NCBI GenBank assembly: GCA_903911085.1
Contig: CAIWCC010000215.1
Coordinates: forward strand, 19,618-83,617
Source of the DNA: an uncultured Bacteroidales bacterium
GTDB taxonomy: Bacteria > Bacteroidota > Bacteroidia > Bacteroidales > Paludibacteraceae
DNA: 64,000 bases
Reading direction: 5' to 3'
Position numbers and translations under genes: made by a program. The notes under the pieces were generated by a model, which saw only the letters and a list, made by a program, of their open reading frames with translations, searched no databases and was not told the DNA's origin. Positions 9,009-46,216 of the stretch are shown piece after piece. Every line of letters begins with the position of its first letter. Position 1 is the stretch's first letter.

Positions 9009-10010
9009 TCAATTCATAAAACTCTTAACAGTTATCTGAAATCCATCTTGAGCATGCGTAGGCATTTTGTCAATACTTAACGCTTTTTTTAATTTTTCAT
9101 TTGATACTACATAATTTTCAGTCAATTTTTCAAGCCTCTCAGTGTTTAACGGTAAATGTATAACTGAACCTAATCGCGCGAGCGATTCAATAATTGATTT
9201 ATTCCAGTTCCAAATTCTATTTGGTTTATGCATGGTTTTAGCCATAAGTGCAATCAACTCATTGGTAGATAAACATTCATCATCTCCAACATTGTAAATA
9301 CCAGAAGGAATTTCCTTGTTAATTAATTCGGAAATTACAAAACTTAGATTGTCAATTGAACAAAATGAACGACGATTTTCAAAAGCACCTAATGGGTATG
9401 GAATGCCTTTTTTTACCACCTGGTACAGCAGGTTCAGATTCCCTTTATTGCCAGGACCATGAATCATGCAAGGTCGAAGAATGTAGGTCTTCTTAGTTGA
9501 CAGTTGACAGTTATTAGTTGATAGTTCTTTTTCTACATTTTCACTATCAACTGAGAACTGAGAATTGTTAGCTGTTAGCTGACAGCTAATTAAGTAGTTT
9601 TCTGCAGCGATTTTGCTTTCTCCATAAGGACCAAGAGGAGTAGGAGTGACGTCTTCGGTTAGAAAATCGCCTTCAACCTTGTCGGCAGCGGCTTTTACAG
9701 AACTGAAAAACACAAATTTGCAGGCATTAGTAGTTAAAAACCAGTCGTAAACCTTTTGAGTTAGACCAGTATTAATGTCAAAATAGATTTGAGCATTGGT
9801 TTGGTTTTTTGTATCATGCGCTTTCCCTGCCAAATGAATAATTACATCAATCTCTGGAATTAAATCTAATTCATTCCATGAGAAGGTTTTAATTACACCT
9901 TCTTTATTTGGTGAAATAATATCTAAACCATATATTTTATGGTTGGTTTTTAAAGCTGCTACAAGGTTGCTGCCCACAAATCCATGTACGCCTGTGATTA
10001 ATATGTTCAT
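9009..10010 (-). CDS. NAD-dependent epimerase/dehydratase (SDR)
   Basis: ITGVHGFVGSNLV, YGESK; contains an internal palindromic repeat expansion (see findings). Confidence 0.85.
   Translation of the reverse strand: MNILITGVHGFVGSNLVAALKTNHKIYGLDIISPNKEGVIKTFSWNELDLIPEIDVIIHLAGKAHDTKNQTNAQIYFDINTGLTQKVYDWFLTTNACKFVFFSSVKAAADKVEGDFLTEDVTPTPLGPYGESKIAAENYLISCQLTANNSQFSVDSENVEKELSTNNCQLSTKKTYILRPCMIHGPGNKGNLNLLYQVVKKGIPYPLGAFENRRSFCSIDNLSFVISELINKEIPSGIYNVGDDECLSTNELIALMAKTMHKPNRIWNWNKSIIESLARLGSVIHLPLNTERLEKLTENYVVSNEKLKKALSIDKMPTHAQDGFQITVKSFMN
9495..9587. repeat. In-frame degenerate heptamer/palindromic repeat inside the SDR gene
   Basis: agttgacagttgacagttattAGTTGATAGT...ACTATCAACTgagaactgagaattgttagctgttagctgacagct; 10-bp perfect inverted repeat 9516-9525/9543-9552. 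Confidence 0.75.
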
Positions 10011-11350
10011 TTTTGTATTTGTTTTTCTAAAAATTTATCTATTACACATGCATAATAATATGGAATATTATAAAGTGTATATGTTTTAGATGATGGTAAT
10101 GTAATTGTATCAATTGTAAAAGCCTGATTCCAAAACCGAATGGCAAAAGTACTAGTTGCACTTTCCATGAATTTATGTAAGGACTTTAACTTAGCATTAT
10201 GCCCAGATTTAACTTCGATAGCAATCAGACTCCCGTTGTAATTTGATACAAAGTCAACTTCTGCCTGCGAATTTCGAACATCGCGCACCCAGTATGCTCT
10301 TTTGGCATTTACTTTGAAGGATAGCGCTATCAATTCTTGTCCTACAATATGTTCAGCCACTTTGCCTTTCCAAACGTCGCTTATATCTTCGCTACTAAAT
10401 AATTCCTTTTGAAAACCTGCAAAATAATTTACCAAGCCCGTATCTAACCACATTATTTTAGGCGATTTATTTACATCCTGAAAAAATGGTAGTGATGTAG
10501 CGTTTGTTGGGTACGACAACTCTATCAGCATGGCTTTTTCCAACACACGCATAGCTTCTCCCATTTCGCGCGATTTATAGGGTGAGTTGGCGAATCGTTC
10601 AAACTTTATCCGCTCACCTGCATACTGCCAACCATGATTTAAGAGGTGCCTTATTACACGTTGAAGTGTTTTGTTATCGGCGTATTTCTCAATATCATCG
10701 GTATATGCTGTAAGCAAATTGTCGAAAACACCACCCAGTGCTACCAAATCTTTCTTTTTACTATAAAACTGTATTGCTTCGGGCATGCCCCCCACTAATA
10801 CAAATTCATTGAATAGTTTTAATATTTTTGAGTGTAAAGCATCCGGTAAAGTTATGGTTTCTAAGCCAATGCTGAGTTGCTCTTCGCCAATAGCACTTAA
10901 AAATTCGATAAACGAACACGGACGTAGAGCCATATACTCAACCCTGCCTACCGGAAAGGAAATATGCCGTCCCATAAAACTCTCGAGCAATGAGCCTGCA
11001 GCAACCACAAAAATATCTGGACGGTCTTCGTAAAAATAACGCAACAAAGCAACCGCTTTGGGCGAAAATTGTATTTCGTCAATAAAAATCAGTAAAGTAC
11101 CTTCCTTTTGTGCAATATTCAATAAGTAAAATGCCGCTCGCACCAATTCATCCACATCATCTGTTTTCTCAAATAATTCAGCTATAGCGCTACGCTCAAT
11201 ATTCAGATAAAGATAATTGTCAAATTGCTTCGAAAACTCATTTACAACAGTGGTTTTACCAACTTGTCGGGCACCTCTCAATATAAGGGGTTTACGCTCC
11301 GGTTTATCGCGCCACTGCTCTAAAAATAACGAAATTTTTCTTTTGAACAT
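10007..11350 (-). CDS. ATP-binding protein, AAA_14/DUF4143 family
   Basis: LILRGARQVGKTTVVNEF Walker A, LLIFIDEIQ Walker B, C-terminal AEVDFVSNYNGSLIAIEVKSG. Confidence 0.9.
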   Translation of the reverse strand: MFKRKISLFLEQWRDKPERKPLILRGARQVGKTTVVNEFSKQFDNYLYLNIERSAIAELFEKTDDVDELVRAAFYLLNIAQKEGTLLIFIDEIQFSPKAVALLRYFYEDRPDIFVVAAGSLLESFMGRHISFPVGRVEYMALRPCSFIEFLSAIGEEQLSIGLETITLPDALHSKILKLFNEFVLVGGMPEAIQFYSKKKDLVALGGVFDNLLTAYTDDIEKYADNKTLQRVIRHLLNHGWQYAGERIKFERFANSPYKSREMGEAMRVLEKAMLIELSYPTNATSLPFFQDVNKSPKIMWLDTGLVNYFAGFQKELFSSEDISDVWKGKVAEHIVGQELIALSFKVNAKRAYWVRDVRNSQAEVDFVSNYNGSLIAIEVKSGHNAKLKSLHKFMESATSTFAIRFWNQAFTIDTITLPSSKTYTLYNIPYYYACVIDKFLEKQIQK

Positions 11351-19528: not shown

Positions 19529-20965
19529 TTATTTGACTGATACTATCCAATATCCACCAAAATCACCTCCAACTCTAGTTATAATATTTTTTTGTTTTAA
19601 CTTTAATATATGTTTTTGTACTGCTGAGGTACTTATATTTAGTAAGTTTGCTATTTCATTACGGCTTACTTTATTGTTGTTTTTTATAATCGTCAGAACT
19701 GCAAGTTGTGAGACGGTTAAAGATTGAGCTTTGTCTGTCTGACCACCTGTCTGACCACCTGTCTGACCACCTGTCTGACCACCTGTCTGACCACCTGAAA
19801 CTTTTTCAATTTCTAAAACACTTTCCTTAACAAAATAATCATTGTTTTTATTTAACTTTAGTTTTTCATTAAACAAAATAACCATAAAACCATTAGAAAT
19901 TTCCTGAAAAATGGGTTCTACAATTCCAAATTCTTTACAAATATGTCGAACGCGCATAATTCCAGAACCATAACGTTCAATTAGTCCAGCCTCTTTAAAA
20001 ATTTTTGCAATTAGCTTGTTCCGTGATTTTGATGTGTAATCTCCTGTGAGCAAATCATTAATAGTAATACCACCATATAATTTCCCAGGATTATAGAACT
20101 CAATTCTGTCGTCAAAAATTTTGATAATACTTGCTGAACTTTCTCTATAATCGCGATGTACTATCATATTAATCACAATTTCACGGATGGCATCAAGTGG
20201 ATAATCGAATCGTTCGGTACGCTGAGGTTCTCCAGTAATTATATATGCTACCATCAGGTGTTTTTTGATGAAAGCAATGATATCTTCAACTTCCTGAAAC
20301 AAATCAGTGTTTAACGAAATGGAATCGATAATTGTAATATCGCTTTTGAAACGACCCACCTGAACATCACTTAATAAGCAATAATCCTTTGCAAACAATA
20401 AATAAGCCCCAAATGTGATTTTTTCATCACGAAGAATCTCCATTTTATTTAAAAAATCATTGTTGGAAAGCGTAATCTCATTTTGAGTCTGTTGATTAAT
20501 TTTCCGTAACAATTTGGAAACTTTCTCATCCGAAATATCGTTCATTGTGTGATTAGGATCAATATAAAAATCCCAACTAGTATTTAACGTCTTCAAATGT
20601 TCATTTGCAATTTCGTTAATACTCATCAAATGATTGGCACTAGCAACTCGTTTATAATATCTACCCCTTGTTGCAACAGGTTTTATTGGGTATTCGGGTA
20701 CAAAAATCTTAGCAACAGTATAAGAGTCAATGTCAATTAATTCTACATCGGGAATCAATTGAGGTGCAGTTTTGTTTTTTACCTCGTTTATCCAATTCTG
20801 AACAGTTTCTTTACCTATTGTAATGCCTTTTACTGTTCCAGCATCGGTAACACCTACATACACCGTACCCCCTTTTGCATTGGCAAAAGCTACAAGTGTT
20901 TCAATAACATCCTCGTTAAAGGAACGTTTGAATTCTGTATTGTTATTTTCCGATTTTGGCAACAT
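19529..20965 (-). CDS. AlbA_2/Schlafen-like ATP-binding protein with C-terminal winged helix
   Basis: ENNNTEFKRSFNEDVIETLVAFANAKGGTVYVGV; IVINMIVHRDYRE; GGQT tandem linker; VSRNEIANLLNISTSAVQKHILKLK. Confidence 0.85.
   Translation of the reverse strand: MLPKSENNNTEFKRSFNEDVIETLVAFANAKGGTVYVGVTDAGTVKGITIGKETVQNWINEVKNKTAPQLIPDVELIDIDSYTVAKIFVPEYPIKPVATRGRYYKRVASANHLMSINEIANEHLKTLNTSWDFYIDPNHTMNDISDEKVSKLLRKINQQTQNEITLSNNDFLNKMEILRDEKITFGAYLLFAKDYCLLSDVQVGRFKSDITIIDSISLNTDLFQEVEDIIAFIKKHLMVAYIITGEPQRTERFDYPLDAIREIVINMIVHRDYRESSASIIKIFDDRIEFYNPGKLYGGITINDLLTGDYTSKSRNKLIAKIFKEAGLIERYGSGIMRVRHICKEFGIVEPIFQEISNGFMVILFNEKLKLNKNNDYFVKESVLEIEKVSGGQTGGQTGGQTGGQTGGQTDKAQSLTVSQLAVLTIIKNNNKVSRNEIANLLNISTSAVQKHILKLKQKNIITRVGGDFGGYWIVSVK
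19736..19795. repeat. 12-bp tandem repeat x5 inside the AlbA_2 gene
   Basis: TGTCTGACCACC x5, encoding (GGQT)n. Confidence 0.95.
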
Positions 20966-38403: not shown

Positions 38404-38541
38404 TTATTTTGCTTCTGTATCTTTAATCATTTTCTCGCTGGCATACATATAAACTTCTACGCGACGGTTTGCTGCTTTTCCTGCTTTAGTTGCATTATCA
38501 GCAACTGGTTCAGCAAAGTTTTTTCCAACAATTTCTTTTAA
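38404..38541 (-). pseudogene. Displaced 3' fragment of an OmpA/YMGG-type gene
   Basis: Encodes KLKEIVGKNFAEPVADNATKAGKAANRRVEVYMYASEKMIKDTEAK*, matching the C-terminus of the intact gene at 45527-46216. Confidence 0.9.
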
Positions 38542-38542
38542 T

Positions 38543-38854
38543 TTACATTATTGTTAGCAATGGCATTTCAAATTCCTCAAATAACGGACTACCAAACTGA
38601 CTTTTATTCAATACAATTATTGCAGAAACGTCTGTAGGTTTTTGATTAAAATATATACCTGTTTTACTGTGAAATACTGTGAAATTCATTTCCAAATAAT
38701 TTTCTATTGTATATTTGATTCTTTCAATATCTTTCTCTGTTAATATATTTGTAGAATTTACAGATATTTCAATAATGTCATGATTTTCACATGAAATAAT
38801 TCTTCTATTTGCTTTCATTTTCTCCATTCTTCTAAATTTACCTACTACTCTCAT
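38543..38854 (-). CDS. Hypothetical small protein (island)
   Basis: ORF MEKMKANRRIISCENHDIIEISVN...; start uncertain. Confidence 0.5.
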   Translation of the reverse strand: MRVVGKFRRMEKMKANRRIISCENHDIIEISVNSTNILTEKDIERIKYTIENYLEMNFTVFHSKTGIYFNQKPTDVSAIIVLNKSQFGSPLFEEFEMPLLTIM

Positions 38855-39003
38855 CCATTTTGTTATACATTTCCTACTTTATATCTAAACATCACGAAAT
38901 ACATCAATTTAAATGTATTTTTCAACGGATTGACCCTGCTATTTAGATATAGGTAAAACAACAGCCTTAAAAAAGAGGGTACTTTACACGTCTTACGAAA
39001 CTT

Positions 39004-39165
39004 ATGAATTTTCCGTTGTTGATGGAATTGAAAATGCTGGTCCTTTCAATTCATGAGCAATCTTTATAGCTTTTTCTTGCCAATAGTTAATCACCTTCTT
39101 TAGAACTTCTACATTTTGTTCTGTATTCAAATAAATTTGATTCAATTCATTTTCTGTTATCATAT
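39004..39165 (-). CDS. Hypothetical 53-aa protein (island)
   Basis: MITENELNQIYLNTEQNVEVLKKVINYWQEKAIKIAHELKGPAFSIPSTTENS*, below the ORF-track cutoff; preceded by the 38-bp leader repeat. Confidence 0.45.
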
Positions 39166-39182
39166 TACTGTTTTATTTTTTT

Positions 39183-39220
39183 ACCTACTTATAAGCTTTT
39201 CGGTTTCCGCTCCTTACTCT
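39183..39220. repeat. 38-bp leader repeat, copy 1
   Basis: acctacttataagcttttcggtttccgctccttactct. Confidence 0.85.
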
Positions 39221-39261
39221 AATTTGAATTAGCTATATTTACTATTAAAATTTAAACTAAA

Positions 39262-39525
39262 TCATAAACCCCTTTCAACGAATGAATTAGTGTATCTTTT
39301 TTCAAATTCTTCATCTAAGCTTGCAGCTAAATTTTCAACACTTTCCAAATCAGGTGAAGTATTACCTTTCCCATTTATTTCCCATTTATGATTTGTACCT
39401 AATACAAATACTTTTAATTTGATTGTTAATTGATAATTGTCATTATTTCTTTTGAAAGATTTTACTTCTTTTTCTGTCAATTTCTTTTGTTTCCATGATT
39501 TTAAAAATACTTCAATTTCGTTCAT
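39262..39525 (-). CDS. Hypothetical small protein (island)
   Basis: MNEIEVFLKSWKQKKLTEKEVKSFKRNNDNYQ... Confidence 0.55.
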   Translation of the reverse strand: MNEIEVFLKSWKQKKLTEKEVKSFKRNNDNYQLTIKLKVFVLGTNHKWEINGKGNTSPDLESVENLAASLDEEFEKRYTNSFVERGL

Positions 39526-39549
39526 TATTATTGTTGTTAATATATTTTT

Positions 39550-39587
39550 ACCTACTCATAAGCTTTTCGGTTTCCGCTCCCTACTCT
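39550..39587. repeat. 38-bp leader repeat, copy 2
   Basis: acctactcataagcttttcggtttccgctccctactct; similarity with copy 3 continues to ~39613. Confidence 0.85.
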
Positions 39588-39627
39588 TTATGGATTTTCT
39601 GGATACTCCAAATATCTATCATTTAAT

Positions 39628-39894
39628 TTACATTTCAGAAACTATTTTCATAACATCTTCAAGGCTAGTAACTTTTACAAGATTCAATGTTATGTTATCA
39701 TTTTCAAAATCAAGCTTATTTGCTCCTTTTTCGATGCTTTTCCAAGCTTCATCTTTAGTTTTGAAAACCTCACTTTCTCCCATTGCAATACTGTTTATTC
39801 CGTTTGGCTTACCATGAGCGGGAGCAATAGATGCTGTCCAACCATTTGCAAAGTCTGTTGTAACTTTATTGAACTTGATAAATATTTTTTTCAT
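39628..39894 (-). CDS. Hypothetical small protein (island)
   Basis: MKKIFIKFNKVTTDFANGWTASIAPAHGKPNG... Confidence 0.55.
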   Translation of the reverse strand: MKKIFIKFNKVTTDFANGWTASIAPAHGKPNGINSIAMGESEVFKTKDEAWKSIEKGANKLDFENDNITLNLVKVTSLEDVMKIVSEM

Positions 39895-39926
39895 ATCTGT
39901 TAATTGAAATTAAATTCGAAATATCA

Positions 39927-40583
39927 TTATTGCTTAACCTTTTGCTCTAGTTTTATTACTTGATAGTTTTCTGCACTGGCACAATAAAATTTATCATTTT
40001 CTTTTCTTATCTCTTCTATTGCTTGATTTACTGGGGTATTTAACAGTAATTTGCCATAGAATATCTTATTGAAATATTTAGCATCAACAACTTGTAGTTT
40101 TTCAGAATAGCCAATTAATCCAAAGAACGGTAGTTCTGGATTATTCTCATCTACAATTTGTATTGCATTTAATCCAAAGCAAGTTGACATGTTAATAAAT
40201 AATGTGCCATTTAAATATGAATTAATCTCATTAAAAATAGACCTTAATTCAGACCAAAAAACAGCTTCATTTGATTCACTTATCAACAAACTTTTACTAT
40301 TACCATGACCAACAATATGTATACAAAATTTATTACCTTTTTGAGCTTCGTTTTTAAGATAACTTAGAAAATCAAAAAACTGATTCTTTGTATTACACTT
40401 TGCACTTGTTTGTTTTACTCCCTTACTCGCAAGAAAAATCAATAAATCATTTGTTATCTCCCAATCTTTTCTTTCACTATCAAGCAAGCAGTCAATAACA
40501 AAAACTACATCATAATCCACTTCTAATTTCCTTATTCCCATATTATTTGATGTGTATTTGTATTTTATTATGACAAATGACAT
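39927..40583 (-). CDS. CHAT/caspase-like cysteine protease-fold protein
   Basis: FCIHIVGHGNSKSLLIS (His motif) and GTLFINMSTCFGLNA (Cys motif) with the usual spacing. Confidence 0.6.
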   Translation of the reverse strand: MSFVIIKYKYTSNNMGIRKLEVDYDVVFVIDCLLDSERKDWEITNDLLIFLASKGVKQTSAKCNTKNQFFDFLSYLKNEAQKGNKFCIHIVGHGNSKSLLISESNEAVFWSELRSIFNEINSYLNGTLFINMSTCFGLNAIQIVDENNPELPFFGLIGYSEKLQVVDAKYFNKIFYGKLLLNTPVNQAIEEIRKENDKFYCASAENYQVIKLEQKVKQ

Positions 40584-40625
40584 TAATGTATAGAACTACT
40601 TAACAAGTAACAAAATTTTTTTCAA

Positions 40626-42191
40626 CTATGATTGTCTCTTGTTTAAAACCAACGTTTTGCCTGTTGAAATTTCTGTTATATTTAACTTTTTCAATTCTTT
40701 AGTGTATTCAATAATGTATTTATTGCCATTTTGGTCTTGCATAGTATATTGAAATAATCCATTTGAATTTTTATAATTTGTCAATTCACATTCCACCCAT
40801 GTTGAACCCACTATTTTGTGATTTGCAATTTTGACTGTTGAAATTTTAAGACTTTCTGAATTGTAATAAAAATAAGCACTAAGACTTTCACTATCGAAAA
40901 CTATATTTTCTTTTCCATCTACAGCATAATTTACATAGGGTTTTACACTAAAACCTTTAAGTTGCTCTAATTCTTTCAATTTATATTTTTCTCTCCAATA
41001 AAACTCTCCTGTTGTTTTTCCAATAGGAGGGAAACAAAAAATGCCTGAATTTGAATAAACTTTTTTTTCTGAAGCATGTTCTCCAATTAAATAAAATTGA
41101 AGAGAACGGTCATAGCCTATGGGTGCATATTCACAAAAGACATAATTTTTGTATTCATAATTATCACGCTTTTCTTTACGATCATTTTCATTCATTAATC
41201 TATTAATTTCATTACTTTCAGCACTTCGCTTAACTATAACAGAACCGCCTCTAAACATTTTATCTCCCAAAATATTTTTTAAACCAGTTTTAACTTCAAA
41301 AGACGAAATATAGAACTCCCCATAAGTGTTAAAACCTTTTTTGTAAGTAAAATTATCAGTAATCCTTTTTAAAGATTCAGGGTTTCTAAAAAAGAAAACT
41401 TGAGCTTTATACTCTTTATGTTCACCTATATAATATCCAAAATCTCCACGAGAAGTTTTATTTTTAAATTCACCCTCTGTAACTACAAATTCATATACTT
41501 TTTTATTTAAAGCTCTATAATTTGCCAACTCTGTTTTATCCATACAAATACTTGATAGAGACTTTATGAGATACTTTGCACAAAATTCCATATTTTTATT
41601 GGCTGTAGCAGTAACAACTAATTCAACACCAAAGTTATTACTTGTTCCATCTAATGATTTTGGTTCCTTAGCTTCAATTTTATAATCAAATGCATTATGT
41701 AATGGCTTACTTAACACCTCAGATAATTGCTCAACTGCTTTTGTTTCAGCCGCTTCATTTAATAATTGTTGTTTAATATTTATCGCAAAAAGTCCTCCTT
41801 GAATTTCAACTGAAACACCTTTTGCCTGAACAAAACTCGTTAATTTACTTACTGATACAACAGCATTAAGAGTAACACCCCAATTGCCATCTGGTAATTG
41901 TGAAGCATTTAATATTTTAAATGATTGAATATTCCCACTTGCAATTGATGCAATTTCATCGGCTACAACTTGGTCGTTAAAAATTTCTGTCTTTGAAGAA
42001 ATAAAGACACCAAATGTTTGTTCTATTGCTGAACGTAAAGCTGATTGTTGTGCAGCATCTTTTGTTACACCACTACCACTAACAGTAATACTAACTGTTT
42101 TACTGTCATCCTTAGCAGCAACATTTTGAGGTACTATAAATAATACGAAAGCAAGTGCAATGATAGCTCCAAGAGATTTTAATTTTTCCAT
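40626..42191 (-). CDS. Exported protein with LPP20/FlgT-like N-terminal domain
   Basis: Signal peptide; VSITVSGSGVTKDAAQQSALRSAIEQTFGVFISSKTEIFNDQ. Confidence 0.55.
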   Translation of the reverse strand: MEKLKSLGAIIALAFVLFIVPQNVAAKDDSKTVSITVSGSGVTKDAAQQSALRSAIEQTFGVFISSKTEIFNDQVVADEIASIASGNIQSFKILNASQLPDGNWGVTLNAVVSVSKLTSFVQAKGVSVEIQGGLFAINIKQQLLNEAAETKAVEQLSEVLSKPLHNAFDYKIEAKEPKSLDGTSNNFGVELVVTATANKNMEFCAKYLIKSLSSICMDKTELANYRALNKKVYEFVVTEGEFKNKTSRGDFGYYIGEHKEYKAQVFFFRNPESLKRITDNFTYKKGFNTYGEFYISSFEVKTGLKNILGDKMFRGGSVIVKRSAESNEINRLMNENDRKEKRDNYEYKNYVFCEYAPIGYDRSLQFYLIGEHASEKKVYSNSGIFCFPPIGKTTGEFYWREKYKLKELEQLKGFSVKPYVNYAVDGKENIVFDSESLSAYFYYNSESLKISTVKIANHKIVGSTWVECELTNYKNSNGLFQYTMQDQNGNKYIIEYTKELKKLNITEISTGKTLVLNKRQS

Positions 42192-42236
42192 ACATTGTTT
42201 ATTTAATTGTAAGCTGTTGAATATCTGTTTGAAATT

Positions 42237-42755
42237 TTATTTTGTTTTGATTTTCTCTTTTTTTAATTCTCTCATATAAATGAAAACTGTTCTGTTACCT
42301 TCTGTATTGTCAAAAGTTGTAAGTAACTCTAGTCCTTGAGTAAACCCATAAGAATTTTGTTTTATTGATTCTATTGTTTCTACCGTGGATTCTAAAGTAT
42401 TATTACTTTTTCGCTCTGTTGATTTAATTATTATATCAGAGTTAATAGTAGCTCCATTTAAAAAAGTATTGACTTGCGATTGTGCTTTCACTTGTGCCAC
42501 TCTGGTCATAATTGAAGGATTGTTGTATTTTGCTTTTTCCAATGAGATTACAGAAACAACATATTGTTGATTGTAATCGTCTACGACTTTTACGCCCTCG
42601 AATGCAGATGAATTGTACATCCGTTTTAAGAAGTTTGAAAAAGCAACTTTATCATAATTGAATGACTGAGCTTGAACAATTGAACAGGTGAACGCAATAA
42701 AGACTATTCCAAGAAAGCATTTTATCAATAAGTTATTTGTTTTCATAGTTACCAT
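42237..42755 (-). CDS. Exported hypothetical protein
   Basis: Signal peptide LLIKCFLGIVFIAFTCSIVQAQ. Confidence 0.55.
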   Translation of the reverse strand: MVTMKTNNLLIKCFLGIVFIAFTCSIVQAQSFNYDKVAFSNFLKRMYNSSAFEGVKVVDDYNQQYVVSVISLEKAKYNNPSIMTRVAQVKAQSQVNTFLNGATINSDIIIKSTERKSNNTLESTVETIESIKQNSYGFTQGLELLTTFDNTEGNRTVFIYMRELKKEKIKTK

Positions 42756-43738
42756 ACAATATAGGTATAAACAACTTTATCAGGTTGATTTTTTGCATAC
42801 TCAGCAGCCACTTCACGCCAAGCATTTATACGGTTTTTTTCCAATATTAAATTGTCTGTGCGTTGTTTTTTTTCCATTTCTATATCGTCTGCATACTTTT
42901 TCATTTCAAATTGCCATTGTATTTTTTCGTCAGCACTTATTTTGGCTTCCATTTGTTTGATAAATGGTGCAACTTCTCTATAAGAACCTGCAAATTGGTT
43001 TATTTGATTTAGAAAATATCTCGCCTTTTCAGCACCTGATATATTTTGTTCAGTTGTCCATGCAGCTTTAGCTTTTGAAAGTAGCAAATTACCATCATAG
43101 TTTATTTTTTGTTGGTAAATATCCTGTATTGTTTCCTGACTTTTTAAGTAACATTCTTTACAAACTTGTGGTACTAAACCCAATTTGTAAATCGCTGCAT
43201 CAAATTGTTGTTGATCAACTAGTGTTTTGGCTTCATTTGCAGTAAAGTCACATTGAGACGAATAGTATGAAATGATTTTATTTTTTCCATCTTCCAAAAA
43301 TGATATAACTTCCTTATTTTTAGGGTTTATGGAATTAAAAGCATCAATATAAGCTTTATTTTCATTCGTGCCTACCCCCTTTAAACTGATAGTTACCGAT
43401 GAAAAAATAGTATTGCTAACGGCATCGCCCACAAACAAAGTAACATTAAGCTTTTGGGCTATCTGTTGAGGTGCTCCAGAAATAATATCTTTTGTTCCCG
43501 TATTTACAGATGCTGTAATAATGAAGCGGGCATTTATGGCACTACCTCCCATTCCATTGATACTTGCAATTTCTTTAAGTTTTGTTTCCAATAACTTTTT
43601 GGCCTCACCCGTAATTGACATATCAGCAGGAAGATATGAATTTAGGATTATTCGTCCAAAATCGTTGAGTTTCACTTGCGATTTAATCGTAAAAGTGAAA
43701 GTTCCAAGAAGAATTAATGATAAAATAAATTTTTTCAT
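42749..43738 (-). CDS. Exported hypothetical protein
   Basis: Signal peptide MKKFILSLILLGTFTFTIKSQ; overlaps next gene. Confidence 0.6.
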   Translation of the reverse strand: MKKFILSLILLGTFTFTIKSQVKLNDFGRIILNSYLPADMSITGEAKKLLETKLKEIASINGMGGSAINARFIITASVNTGTKDIISGAPQQIAQKLNVTLFVGDAVSNTIFSSVTISLKGVGTNENKAYIDAFNSINPKNKEVISFLEDGKNKIISYYSSQCDFTANEAKTLVDQQQFDAAIYKLGLVPQVCKECYLKSQETIQDIYQQKINYDGNLLLSKAKAAWTTEQNISGAEKARYFLNQINQFAGSYREVAPFIKQMEAKISADEKIQWQFEMKKYADDIEMEKKQRTDNLILEKNRINAWREVAAEYAKNQPDKVVYTYIVW

Positions 43739-43743
43739 TTCGA

Positions 43744-44697
43744 TTATTTTTCACCTAAAACAAGGATTGCTTCTCCAAGTCCACGGGTCATTAGTTTAAC
43801 TTCAAAATTAAATGGTGCCCCTTTCAGGTATTTCTGTAATCCTTTGGCGAATTGTCGGGCATCTATTGGGTCGTTATCAGCATTATGTAATGGAATACGT
43901 ACTTGGTCAAAACGAATAAAGTTTTCGGAAGCATCACTCATATTGAATTTTTTATTTACGGTGTTATCCTTCATCCATTTATTGATATAATCGGTAATTT
44001 CTTGTCCGTTTATTTCAGTTTCCAAATTATTTTCCCAACTATTCCATCTTTTTACAGTAACAAGTATTTCTCTACCATTCTTTGAAATATCGTTGAAATG
44101 TGATTGTAACTGCGATACAAAAGGATTAATATTTTTGATAATTGCTTCTTCCAACAAAACAGGTACGATATCTGAATTATTAACATCCCCTGTTCCAGTA
44201 GATGAAGCAATCCGCTTGCTGGTATAAGCATCAAAGGCTTCGAGTGTAAATGAAACAGATTTGCCTTGGTCTGATTTATTGACTTTCCACCATATCTGAA
44301 TTAGAATATCTGCTTTAGATTTGTTTTTTAGTTTATCCAATGGGCTTTCTGCAATTGAAGTGCCAGAGTTGCTACTGGTTGTCATATTAGCTTCGCCAGT
44401 TCTTTCTTCAATAGCTTTCAATTCCTGTTCTACATCTTTGAGCGGAAAGCCACGTTTAATCATTAATGCACCGATTTTACTAATCACCTGACCGATTTCA
44501 GTATCTTCCTGAAATACTTGTTTATAATTAGGAACTTTTTGTTTAGTTCCTTGATTATTAAATTCTGTCATAAAATACCGTTGTTCGCACCAATTGTCGC
44601 TGGGAAGAATCATTAAAGTTGGCTTCTTTGCTTGTGCAAATAAAAGCATAGAACTGTAAATGATTAGAAGAGCAAATGTAAAAATAAACCTTTTCAT
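43744..44697 (-). CDS. Exported protein, DUF6175-like
   Basis: Signal peptide; PTLMILPSDNWCEQRYFMTEFNNQGTKQKVPNYKQVFQEDTEIGQVISKIGALMIKRGFPLKDVEQELK. Confidence 0.65.
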   Translation of the reverse strand: MKRFIFTFALLIIYSSMLLFAQAKKPTLMILPSDNWCEQRYFMTEFNNQGTKQKVPNYKQVFQEDTEIGQVISKIGALMIKRGFPLKDVEQELKAIEERTGEANMTTSSNSGTSIAESPLDKLKNKSKADILIQIWWKVNKSDQGKSVSFTLEAFDAYTSKRIASSTGTGDVNNSDIVPVLLEEAIIKNINPFVSQLQSHFNDISKNGREILVTVKRWNSWENNLETEINGQEITDYINKWMKDNTVNKKFNMSDASENFIRFDQVRIPLHNADNDPIDARQFAKGLQKYLKGAPFNFEVKLMTRGLGEAILVLGEK

Positions 44698-44718
44698 AAC
44701 TATATTCGATTTGATAAT

Positions 44719-45060
44719 TTATTTTTGTTTAATATTTATAATTGCATTTTCATAATCAGTTTTACTACATTCAACAAATCCACTTTTCAAGAATTTATTA
44801 ACCAGTTCAATTGAGCAATCACCTTCATAAACATCTTCTTTTTTTGTAAAATAGGTATTGTAAACAACAATATGGTAATGAGTTGTTTGTTCAGCAATTA
44901 AAACGAACTCGATAAGTTCAAACACAGTACAAGGTTTCTGAAAATTATCAGAAGTTTCAAATTTCAAATAAGTCATAATATTATTTTTTGATATAAGCCT
45001 ACTCATAAAGCTTTTCGGCATTCTCTCCTTACTCTGTGTTGGATTTTCAGGTTGCTCCAT
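44719..45060 (-). CDS. Hypothetical small protein; likely start at MTYLKFETSDNF, downstream of the leader repeat
   Basis: ORF; first ~25 codons coincide with the 38-bp repeat. Confidence 0.5.
   Translation of the reverse strand: MEQPENPTQSKERMPKSFMSRLISKNNIMTYLKFETSDNFQKPCTVFELIEFVLIAEQTTHYHIVVYNTYFTKKEDVYEGDCSIELVNKFLKSGFVECSKTDYENAIINIKQK
44997..45035. repeat. 38-bp leader repeat, copy 3
   Basis: gcctactcataaagcttttcggcattctctccttactct; similarity with copy 2 extends to ~45058. Confidence 0.8.
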
Positions 45061-45094
45061 ATATTATTTTTCTTCATTTTTGGGCACAAAAAAA

Positions 45095-45168
45095 GCGTGG
45101 GAACTGTTAAACTTATCTTTTGTGAAGGGTCTCGACTCCCTGAAAGTAGATAAGCAACAGCCCCACGC
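45095..45168 (-). ncRNA. Long hairpin HP1 with minus-strand U-tract (attenuator/terminator or ncRNA 3' hairpin)
   Basis: GCGTGGG/CCCACGC, CTGTT/AACAG, CTTATCT/AGATAAG, AGGG/CCCT stems; seven A's at 45088-45094 give minus-strand T7. Confidence 0.65.
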
Positions 45169-45186
45169 CTATAGTTATAGACATGG

Positions 45187-45259
45187 AGCGTTTGTTGCTA
45201 TCATCCTACTTTCTTTGAAATTGTCGAGATTTCACAAAAGGATAATATTTTAAAACGCT
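45187..45259. repeat. Long hairpin HP2, diverged inverted copy of HP1
   Basis: AGCGTTT/AAACGCT, TATCATCC/GGATAATA, GAAAT/ATTTC stems; shares GTTGCT, TACTTTC, GTCGAGA, TTCACAAAAG with revcomp of HP1. Confidence 0.65.
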
Positions 45260-45320
45260 TTGTTTTGTTTAATATGTAATGCAATTGTCGCTACAATTGA
45301 CGAGGTAATTTTAAGAACTG

Positions 45321-45328
45321 CAAATATA
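45321..45328 (-). promoter_or_regulatory. Putative Bacteroidota -7 element upstream of the hairpin pair
   Basis: Minus strand TATATTTG matches TAnnTTTG. Confidence 0.35.
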
Positions 45329-45469
45329 AGAATAATTACTTTATTAATTTATATAATACGAGATTAATTTTAAAAATAATTTTCTAAGTAGACACTTAAA
45401 TGTTTAGAAATAATATTATCCTAGTAAAATCAAAATGGTTAATTGATGTATAATCATAATTTATAGAAT

Positions 45470-45508
45470 AAAAAAACACTCGTAAATACTAAACGAGTGT
45501 TTTTTTTA
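45470..45508. terminator. Bidirectional intrinsic terminator of the OmpA gene
   Basis: AACACTCGT...ACGAGTGTTTTTTTT. Confidence 0.85.
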
Positions 45509-45526
45509 TTCTAAAATCGAAATAGC

Positions 45527-46216
45527 TTATTTTGCTTCAGCGTCTTTAATCATTTTTTCGCTAGCGTACATATAAACTTCTACACGTCTATTAGCTGCTT
45601 GACCAGCTTTAGTCGCATTATCAGCAACAGGTTCCGAAAAACTTTTTCCTATAATTTCTTTAAATTGTGATGATAGAACGTTTTTGGATTTTAAGAAATC
45701 AGCAACTGCTTGTGCACGGTCTTGAGATAATTTTTGGTTCAATTCAGGTTTGCCTGTATTGTCGGTATGACCCATAATTGCAATGTCCATAGTTGGATTG
45801 TCAACTAAAATTTTGGAGAATTTTGTTAATGCGGCTTTTGCAGATTCACTCAAAGTACTTTTGTTTAATTCAAATAAAATTCCTGAATCGAAAGTTACTT
45901 TCAATGCTTTCAGATTATTAGCATCGCGAATACTGTCAACTCTTGCGCCTTCGATGGCAGCAGCTTGTGCTCGTGCTTTATCCATTTTTTTACCAATAAT
46001 AACACCTGTAGTTGCTCCCACAGCAGTACCAATTCCAGCTCCAATAGCTGCGCTTTTTGCATTTTTGCCAATTAAAGCACCAACGCCAGCACCAATTGCT
46101 GCACCTGCGCCACTACCAATTAAGCCACCTTTTGTTGCTTGACTCATTGAACTACAGCCGCTTAATACAATGGCTCCACTAAGGATGATTGCCATTAATC
46201 CATTTTTTTGTTTCAT
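45527..46216 (-). CDS. OmpA family protein with glycine-zipper (YMGG-like) N-terminal region
   Basis: Lipobox SGAIVLSGCSS; Gly zipper; IMGHTDNTGKPELNQKLSQDRAQAVADFL. Confidence 0.9.
   Translation of the reverse strand: MKQKNGLMAIILSGAIVLSGCSSMSQATKGGLIGSGAGAAIGAGVGALIGKNAKSAAIGAGIGTAVGATTGVIIGKKMDKARAQAAAIEGARVDSIRDANNLKALKVTFDSGILFELNKSTLSESAKAALTKFSKILVDNPTMDIAIMGHTDNTGKPELNQKLSQDRAQAVADFLKSKNVLSSQFKEIIGKSFSEPVADNATKAGQAANRRVEVYMYASEKMIKDAEAK

Follow-up and report, generated by a model that had tools for sequence, protein, structure and literature searches.

A small, stand-alone caspase/CHAT-fold protein of a rare family with phage-defence neighbours, carried behind an apparently unrelated exported operon in a Bacteroidales genome

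The stretch of DNA analysed here (64,000 nucleotides of contig CAIWCC010000215.1 from an uncultured Bacteroidales bacterium, referred to hereafter as the window) belongs to a 6.25 Mb, Bacteroidales-like genome and encodes, on its minus strand at 39927–40583, a 218-residue protein that structural modelling places in the caspase/CHAT fold (clan CD) with a His93/Cys135 dyad. This putative protease apparently represents a rare, stand-alone and undescribed family, several members of which sit among phage-defence genes. We favour, with moderate confidence, the reading that it is a cytosolic effector triggered by infection, from a rare family that keeps phage-defence company, and that in the window it travels as cargo behind an exported operon with which it has no functional connection.

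Profile searches do not place the protein: it has no match in Pfam, NCBIfam or PADLOC, hmmscan returned no family at E ≤ 1 (neither Peptidase_C14, the caspase domain, nor CHAT, PF12770, gathering threshold 24 bits, the latter also matching nothing in the genome), and phmmer against the PDB found no match. The fold was instead obtained from AlphaFold, which, supplied with a seven-row alignment, produced a model with a predicted local distance difference test score (pLDDT) of 82 and a predicted template modelling (TM) score of 0.83; a single-sequence run reached a pLDDT of 39.5 and was set aside for the alignment-based model. A Foldseek search of the PDB with this model gave 77 matches at E ≤ 0.001, headed by CHAT proteins, caspases and MALT1. 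The best of these is SAVED-CHAT 8tl0 (E 4.9e-8, TM 0.55 by query), and the other top matches include procaspase-8 and MALT1 (both at E 2e-5), c-FLIP and caspase-7. Within the model, the strand spanning residues 86–91 runs into His93–Gly94 and that spanning residues 129–133 runs into Cys135, matching the order expected of a caspase fold. His93, Gly94 and Cys135 are invariant across 17 aligned homologues, and His89 is present in at least 90% of them; a profile built from the same 17 homologues found three matches only among PDB sequences, the sole CHAT protein among them being 8tl0, aligned over the catalytic region at a non-significant E of 0.45. An earlier note on this DNA had read a CHAT/caspase protein from the motif HIVGHG...STC, and had suggested structure prediction of 39927–40583 as a check; run here, that check found the caspase fold and its dyad, so the fold is not refuted, and the assignment is borne out by the model, the structural matches and the His/Gly/Cys conservation, without profile support. 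The absence of a signal peptide (by eye) and of an accessory domain also holds, the modelled chain comprising one caspase-fold domain and a short low-confidence tail. Taken with the dyad, the model suggests that the protein would act as a protease.

Homologues are few and scattered. In a phylum sample of Bacteroidota, 9 of 396 genomes match (~2%, the window genome included), and the window protease is absent from 39 other genomes searched, 23 of them congeneric. Members were recovered from Bacteroidota genomes, two Burkholderiales plasmids and one P2-like phage contig, and one lies in an integrative and conjugative element (ICE)-like region of Parabacteroides where an integrase is present; none was found in phage records or in Escherichia coli genomes. 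One match (L018) was left out of the homologue set for lack of a recognisable dyad, and four weak matches (L019, L020, L023 and L024) revealed no homologous open reading frame (ORF) on inspection. In the resulting tree the window protein groups with the homologues at loci L055, L077 and L145 (support 94/96), all four being ~207–218 residues long where most other homologues carry a C-terminal extension of ~70 residues. The best reading of this distribution is that the family moves horizontally. The phage contig, the ICE-like region and the two plasmids would also suit a weapon of the carrier element itself, used for superinfection exclusion or counter-defence; many homologues are nevertheless chromosomal and lie beside restriction systems, superinfection exclusion would itself count as phage defence, and we regard this explanation as improbable.

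The surroundings of the three clade-mates provide a link to immunity. At L145 the gene order is hsdM, a 410-aa gene, hsdS, protease, hsdR and AbiEii/AbiEi, with the protease 53 bp from hsdS and 3 bp from hsdR (the 410-aa gene, L145:9851-11083, shares the homologue's operon, with hsdM and hsdS on either side of it, and has no Pfam or PADLOC match). At L055, in Psychroflexus tropicus, a type III endonuclease, an HKD+Snf2 helicase and a DUF4391 gene precede the protease. At L077 the protease lies in a P2-like phage, between a tail-fibre assembly gene and the sheath and tube genes; in P2 itself fun sits between G and FI, and we take the L077 position to be that of fun. The L077 homologue therefore likely occupies the fun defence hotspot of P2-like phage. 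Vassallo et al. describe a second defence-enriched locus of P2, which holds fun (PMC9519451).

Beyond this clade, homologues are found alongside genes of the cyclic-oligonucleotide-based antiphage signalling system (CBASS; L054), prokaryotic Argonaute (pAgo) and restriction-type genes including a match to a type II restriction endonuclease model (L069), a type III endonuclease (L070), NgoFVII restriction and methylase genes (L071) and DISARM-type DrmA/DrmB (L072). Restriction, CBASS, DISARM or pAgo genes occur at 6 of 16 homologue loci and at 0 of 13 control regions drawn from the genomes of the homologues (one-sided Fisher p 0.017), and of three further loci recovered afterwards one is positive, for a total of 7/19. 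The 107 neighbour proteins matched 190 PADLOC models as against 13 for 107 control proteins, although a PADLOC match alone does not prove a defence role. These neighbourhoods support the immunity link that the earlier note had drawn for the caspase-like protein. We also observe, ~1.1–1.2 kb from the protease, a gene of the PADLOC PD-T4-1 / PDC-S36 candidate families at both L069:5851-7107 and L071:10305-11399.

Several features of the same loci weigh against a defence role. The control set is small and consists partly of contig ends; L070 and L072 share one genus and so are not independent; comparison of 16 neighbourhoods yielded no partner gene constant across the homologue loci; no defence gene lies near the window copy itself; and some homologues may be remnants, the one at L146:8676-9432 being split over two overlapping frames and apparently decaying. 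Further, 12 of 19 homologue loci have no clear defence gene within ~6 kb, which would suit a housekeeping or signalling protease (acting in regulatory cleavage or a stress response) whose proximity to defence genes reflects the habit of islands of gathering accessory genes. Islands do collect many unrelated genes, and the L073 homologue adjoins a CHASE2 cyclase gene. Against this stand the patchy distribution, atypical of a housekeeping gene, and the fact that every one of the three clade-mates occupies either a restriction operon or an accessory site of a phage, the L145 copy lying 3 bp from hsdR with hsdS on its other side; we judge a housekeeping function unlikely, if worth keeping in view.

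The earlier note had also joined the protease to its neighbours, reading protease, DUF6175 protein, LPP20-like protein and small ORFs as a single module for defence, toxicity or stress, with the envelope-directed or small proteins as targets of the protease. Ten ORFs, their reading frames judged real, do run in the same direction on the minus strand across 38543–45060, as the ORF list bears out, in the transcript order s113, DUF6175, P329, P172, LPP20-like, protease, s88, s87, s53 and s103 and with intergenic gaps of 21, 5, −7, 45, 42, 32, 102, 98 and 147 bp. The tight spacing that had been described is real from s113 to s88 and lapses for the later small ORFs, which lie 102, 98 and 147 bp apart; given the shared direction and the short gaps from DUF6175 to s88, these genes may share a transcript. 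Conservation tells against a joint function. The protease is absent from all other DUF6175 loci of the genus, and when every protein of the island was compared by phmmer with the ORFs of the 16 protease neighbourhoods, the protease alone was returned. The 87-aa and 88-aa ORFs have no homologue in 80 relatives, and therefore nothing marks them as the conserved substrates or regulators they had been supposed to be. By eye the protease has no signal peptide, unlike the exported proteins taken to be its partners, and an enzyme of the cytosol would hardly encounter them. Because co-occurrence is missing in either direction, the two small ORFs searched for are orphans and a cytosolic product is set against exported ones, we reject the single system on comparative-genomic grounds; the one-module reading is close to refuted and very improbable, the neighbourhood-conservation check having told against the system and not against the fold. 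The DUF6175–P329–P172–LPP20 run appears instead to be a separate, envelope-located operon unrelated to the protease, and should not carry annotation as part of a defence system.

Operons of this kind recur in the genus. The DUF6175 exported protein (43744–44697, minus strand, as are all genes of the run) is assigned with certainty (PF19672, 363.6 bits against a cut-off of 23, E 8.7e-109), confirming the earlier call, and DUF6175 is found in 14 of 48 genomes of the genus. The 329-aa exported protein P329 (42749–43738) is its usual partner, adjoining it in 12 of 14 other DUF6175 loci of the genus, where exported proteins of ~170 aa and ~580 aa (570–590 aa) are commonly encoded upstream. Window genes 42749–44697 correspond to this exported operon; unlike the usual form, the window version is without the upstream 570–590 aa and ~170 aa genes and has P172 and the LPP20-like gene. 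Across the genus (L021, L022 and L040–L051) the recurrent arrangement comprises a ~580-aa protein, one or more ~170-aa proteins, DUF6175 and P329, to which a ~430-aa protein is often added; Pfam recognises neither the 580-aa nor the 430-aa proteins that were tested.

P172 (42237–42755), a 172-aa exported protein with homologues in L021 and L022 only, forms with the LPP20-like gene a pair seen in just two other loci (genomes G004 and G002), where the gaps are filled by an Lcl_C-bearing LPP20 protein, RelE-like small ORFs and unknowns. Its 'XFP_N' match, like other sub-threshold Pfam matches, was judged to be chance. The 521-aa exported protein (40626–42191) has a signal-like N-terminus, and the LPP20-like label given to it survives as a weak N-terminal match and fails as a family assignment, the score for PF02169 lying below the cut-off (15.7 against 25.9 bits, E 0.021). 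Its relative in L021 (G004) matches LPP20 just as weakly and in addition Lcl_C, at E 3e-11, and the homologues in G004 and G002 align to the window protein over residues 15–239 only. The corresponding proteins, L021:6264-7673 and L022:6020-7585, have ~220 residues in common with it and then diverge, such that the C-terminus of these LPP20-like proteins looks exchangeable. Among the papers available to the search, none dealt with DUF6175 or with DUF805b, the RNA family considered next.

Three direct repeats of 38–47 nt, which the earlier note had passed over, precede s113, s87 and s53. The same repeat recurs at ten other genome sites, ~20–40 nt upstream of start codons and often those of lipoprotein genes; its 20-mer core, allowing up to three mismatches, has 12 matches in the genome (two in the window's contig), where the reversed control gives 0. 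The window copies resemble the DUF805b RNA (RF02914, gathering threshold 35.6 bits), scoring 33.2 bits (E 2.6e-6) at 45026–45060, where the leader heads the run, 29.3 bits (E 5.3e-5) at 39549–39580, ahead of the 87-aa ORF, and 23.5 bits (E 0.005) at 39182–39213, ahead of the 53-aa ORF, all on the minus strand; most copies fall just below gathering, and one elsewhere in the same genome (L119) reaches 36.0 bits. An integron-like or cassette-recombination origin was dropped because the repeats resemble the DUF805b RNA and precede start codons genome-wide: they are probably known DUF805b cis-regulatory elements, and as such uninformative on a module. Since 45026–45060 is a DUF805b-like leader, the start of s113 should probably move from 45060 to 44976, leaving an 85-aa frame at 44719–44976. 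Several such leaders (L113–L121 and the window copies) carry a short MEKPENP-type reading frame. At the other end of the run, s88 (39628–39894) lies 32 bp behind the protease and is followed by s87 (39262–39525), s53 (39002–39163) and s103 (38543–38854), a 103-aa orphan that touches the remnant of an OmpA-family gene.

This remnant marks one edge of a block, 38543–45526, bracketed by two 84%-identical copies of the last 140 bp of the OmpA-family gene (38404–38543 and 45527–45666). The high-coordinate copy is the 3' end of an OmpA / glycine-zipper outer-membrane protein gene (45527–46216, minus strand; PF00691 E 1.8e-18); the low-coordinate remnant, on the same strand, encodes in frame a nearly identical C-terminus (LKEIVGKNFAEPVADNATKAGKAANRRVEVYMYASEKMIKDTEAK followed by a stop codon). 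Each copy of the repeat is then followed by a terminator-like hairpin. Of the 'apparent mobile island' in the earlier note, the bracketed outline is thus present, without the machinery: no integrase, transposase or recombinase was seen among the ORFs of 38543–45526, and ARAGORN found no tRNA there. In ten relatives the UDP-GDH, NUDIX and CPBP genes are conserved on the CPBP side of the island, beyond which the sequence differs and none has the OmpA gene there; an empty site sought in these relatives via the CPBP gene was not found, and recombination between OmpA paralogues as the arrival route of the block is our guess. Elsewhere in the window (7500–36300), a large polysaccharide cluster, O-antigen- or capsule-like and named by eye, is interrupted by a DUF4143-like ATPase (10007–11350) and a putative AlbA-type DNA-binding regulator (19529–20965), also assigned by eye.

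The setting raises the prospect that, whatever the role of the family in other genomes, the window copy is a leftover of some earlier island, hitchhiking in a decaying or inactive state. It has no partner nearby, its guanine-plus-cytosine content is 27.5% (34% for the DUF6175 gene), the other genus genomes searched do not hold it, and the flanking OmpA fragment speaks of a rearranged site. The frame is nonetheless intact, the dyad and clade-invariant residues are kept and the model is confident, and we consider inactivity rather doubtful; the window copy may well be active.

Under the effector reading that we favour, the protease would stay latent in the cytosol until it is triggered, either by infection itself or when a resident restriction enzyme is inhibited. 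Once activated, it would cut at least one protein of the host or the phage via His93/Cys135, and this cleavage would halt growth or phage production. In its native settings the family may parallel PrrC, a restriction system housing the latent effector and keeping it in check; prrC encodes a latent nuclease within the prr operon that is held by the restriction complex and freed on phage infection (PMC3874165, PMC2610378). The window copy would have lost, or never had, a restriction partner in cis, and would now ride as cargo behind the DUF6175–P329–P172–LPP20 operon. A more specific version, in which the caspase-fold protease guards restriction-modification in the manner of PrrC, being lodged within hsd or type III loci and set free by phage inhibition of restriction so as to cause proteolytic abortive infection, is an analogy that we hold tentatively and think rather unlikely as it stands. 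Embedding in a type I operon is seen for L145, and L055 and L070 lie beside type III systems, with the window copy and most homologues in neither setting.

Bacterial caspase-like proteases are known from type III CRISPR, gasdermin, NLR, Thoeris and Canu immunity (PMC12799240), where dedicated domains or partners generally accompany them, whereas the family described here is small and stand-alone. SAVED-CHAT (8tl0), a CHAT-type immunity protease and the best structural match, has a nucleotide-sensing SAVED domain; the 218-aa protein is without a sensor domain and has no such gene nearby. Canu (CanABC; PMC12799240) resembles it in placing a caspase-family protease with a MALT1-like fold in defence islands, yet CanA includes an immunoglobulin (Ig)-like domain, and its gene is accompanied by those for CanB and the pro-nuclease CanC. 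The model of the window protease contains no Ig-like domain, no Canu-type pro-nuclease of the metallo-β-lactamase (MBL) fold lies next to it, and no nuclease partner recurs across the homologue loci, whose neighbours had no MBL-profile check. Craspase TPR-CHAT, of type III-E CRISPR (PMC9729208), is likewise a CHAT-type caspase-like immunity protease, with a tetratricopeptide repeat (TPR) array and a gRAMP partner that are both absent here. With Ig-like, SAVED and TPR domains and a constant nuclease partner all missing, none of these immune caspase systems fits. The likeness to PrrC/EcoprrI, seen in the L145 protease gene lodged in its hsd operon between hsdS and hsdR, is one of working and not of membership, since PrrC is no protease but an anticodon nuclease that carries an ABC ATPase domain, and hsd genes are missing around the window copy; that of L077 to fun (Z), at the second P2 defence hotspot (PMC9519451), is one of position only, without sequence comparison. 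The L145 and L077 loci offer compact constructs, and the family, if active, would add a domain-minimal caspase effector to those already known and tie caspase-type killing to restriction.

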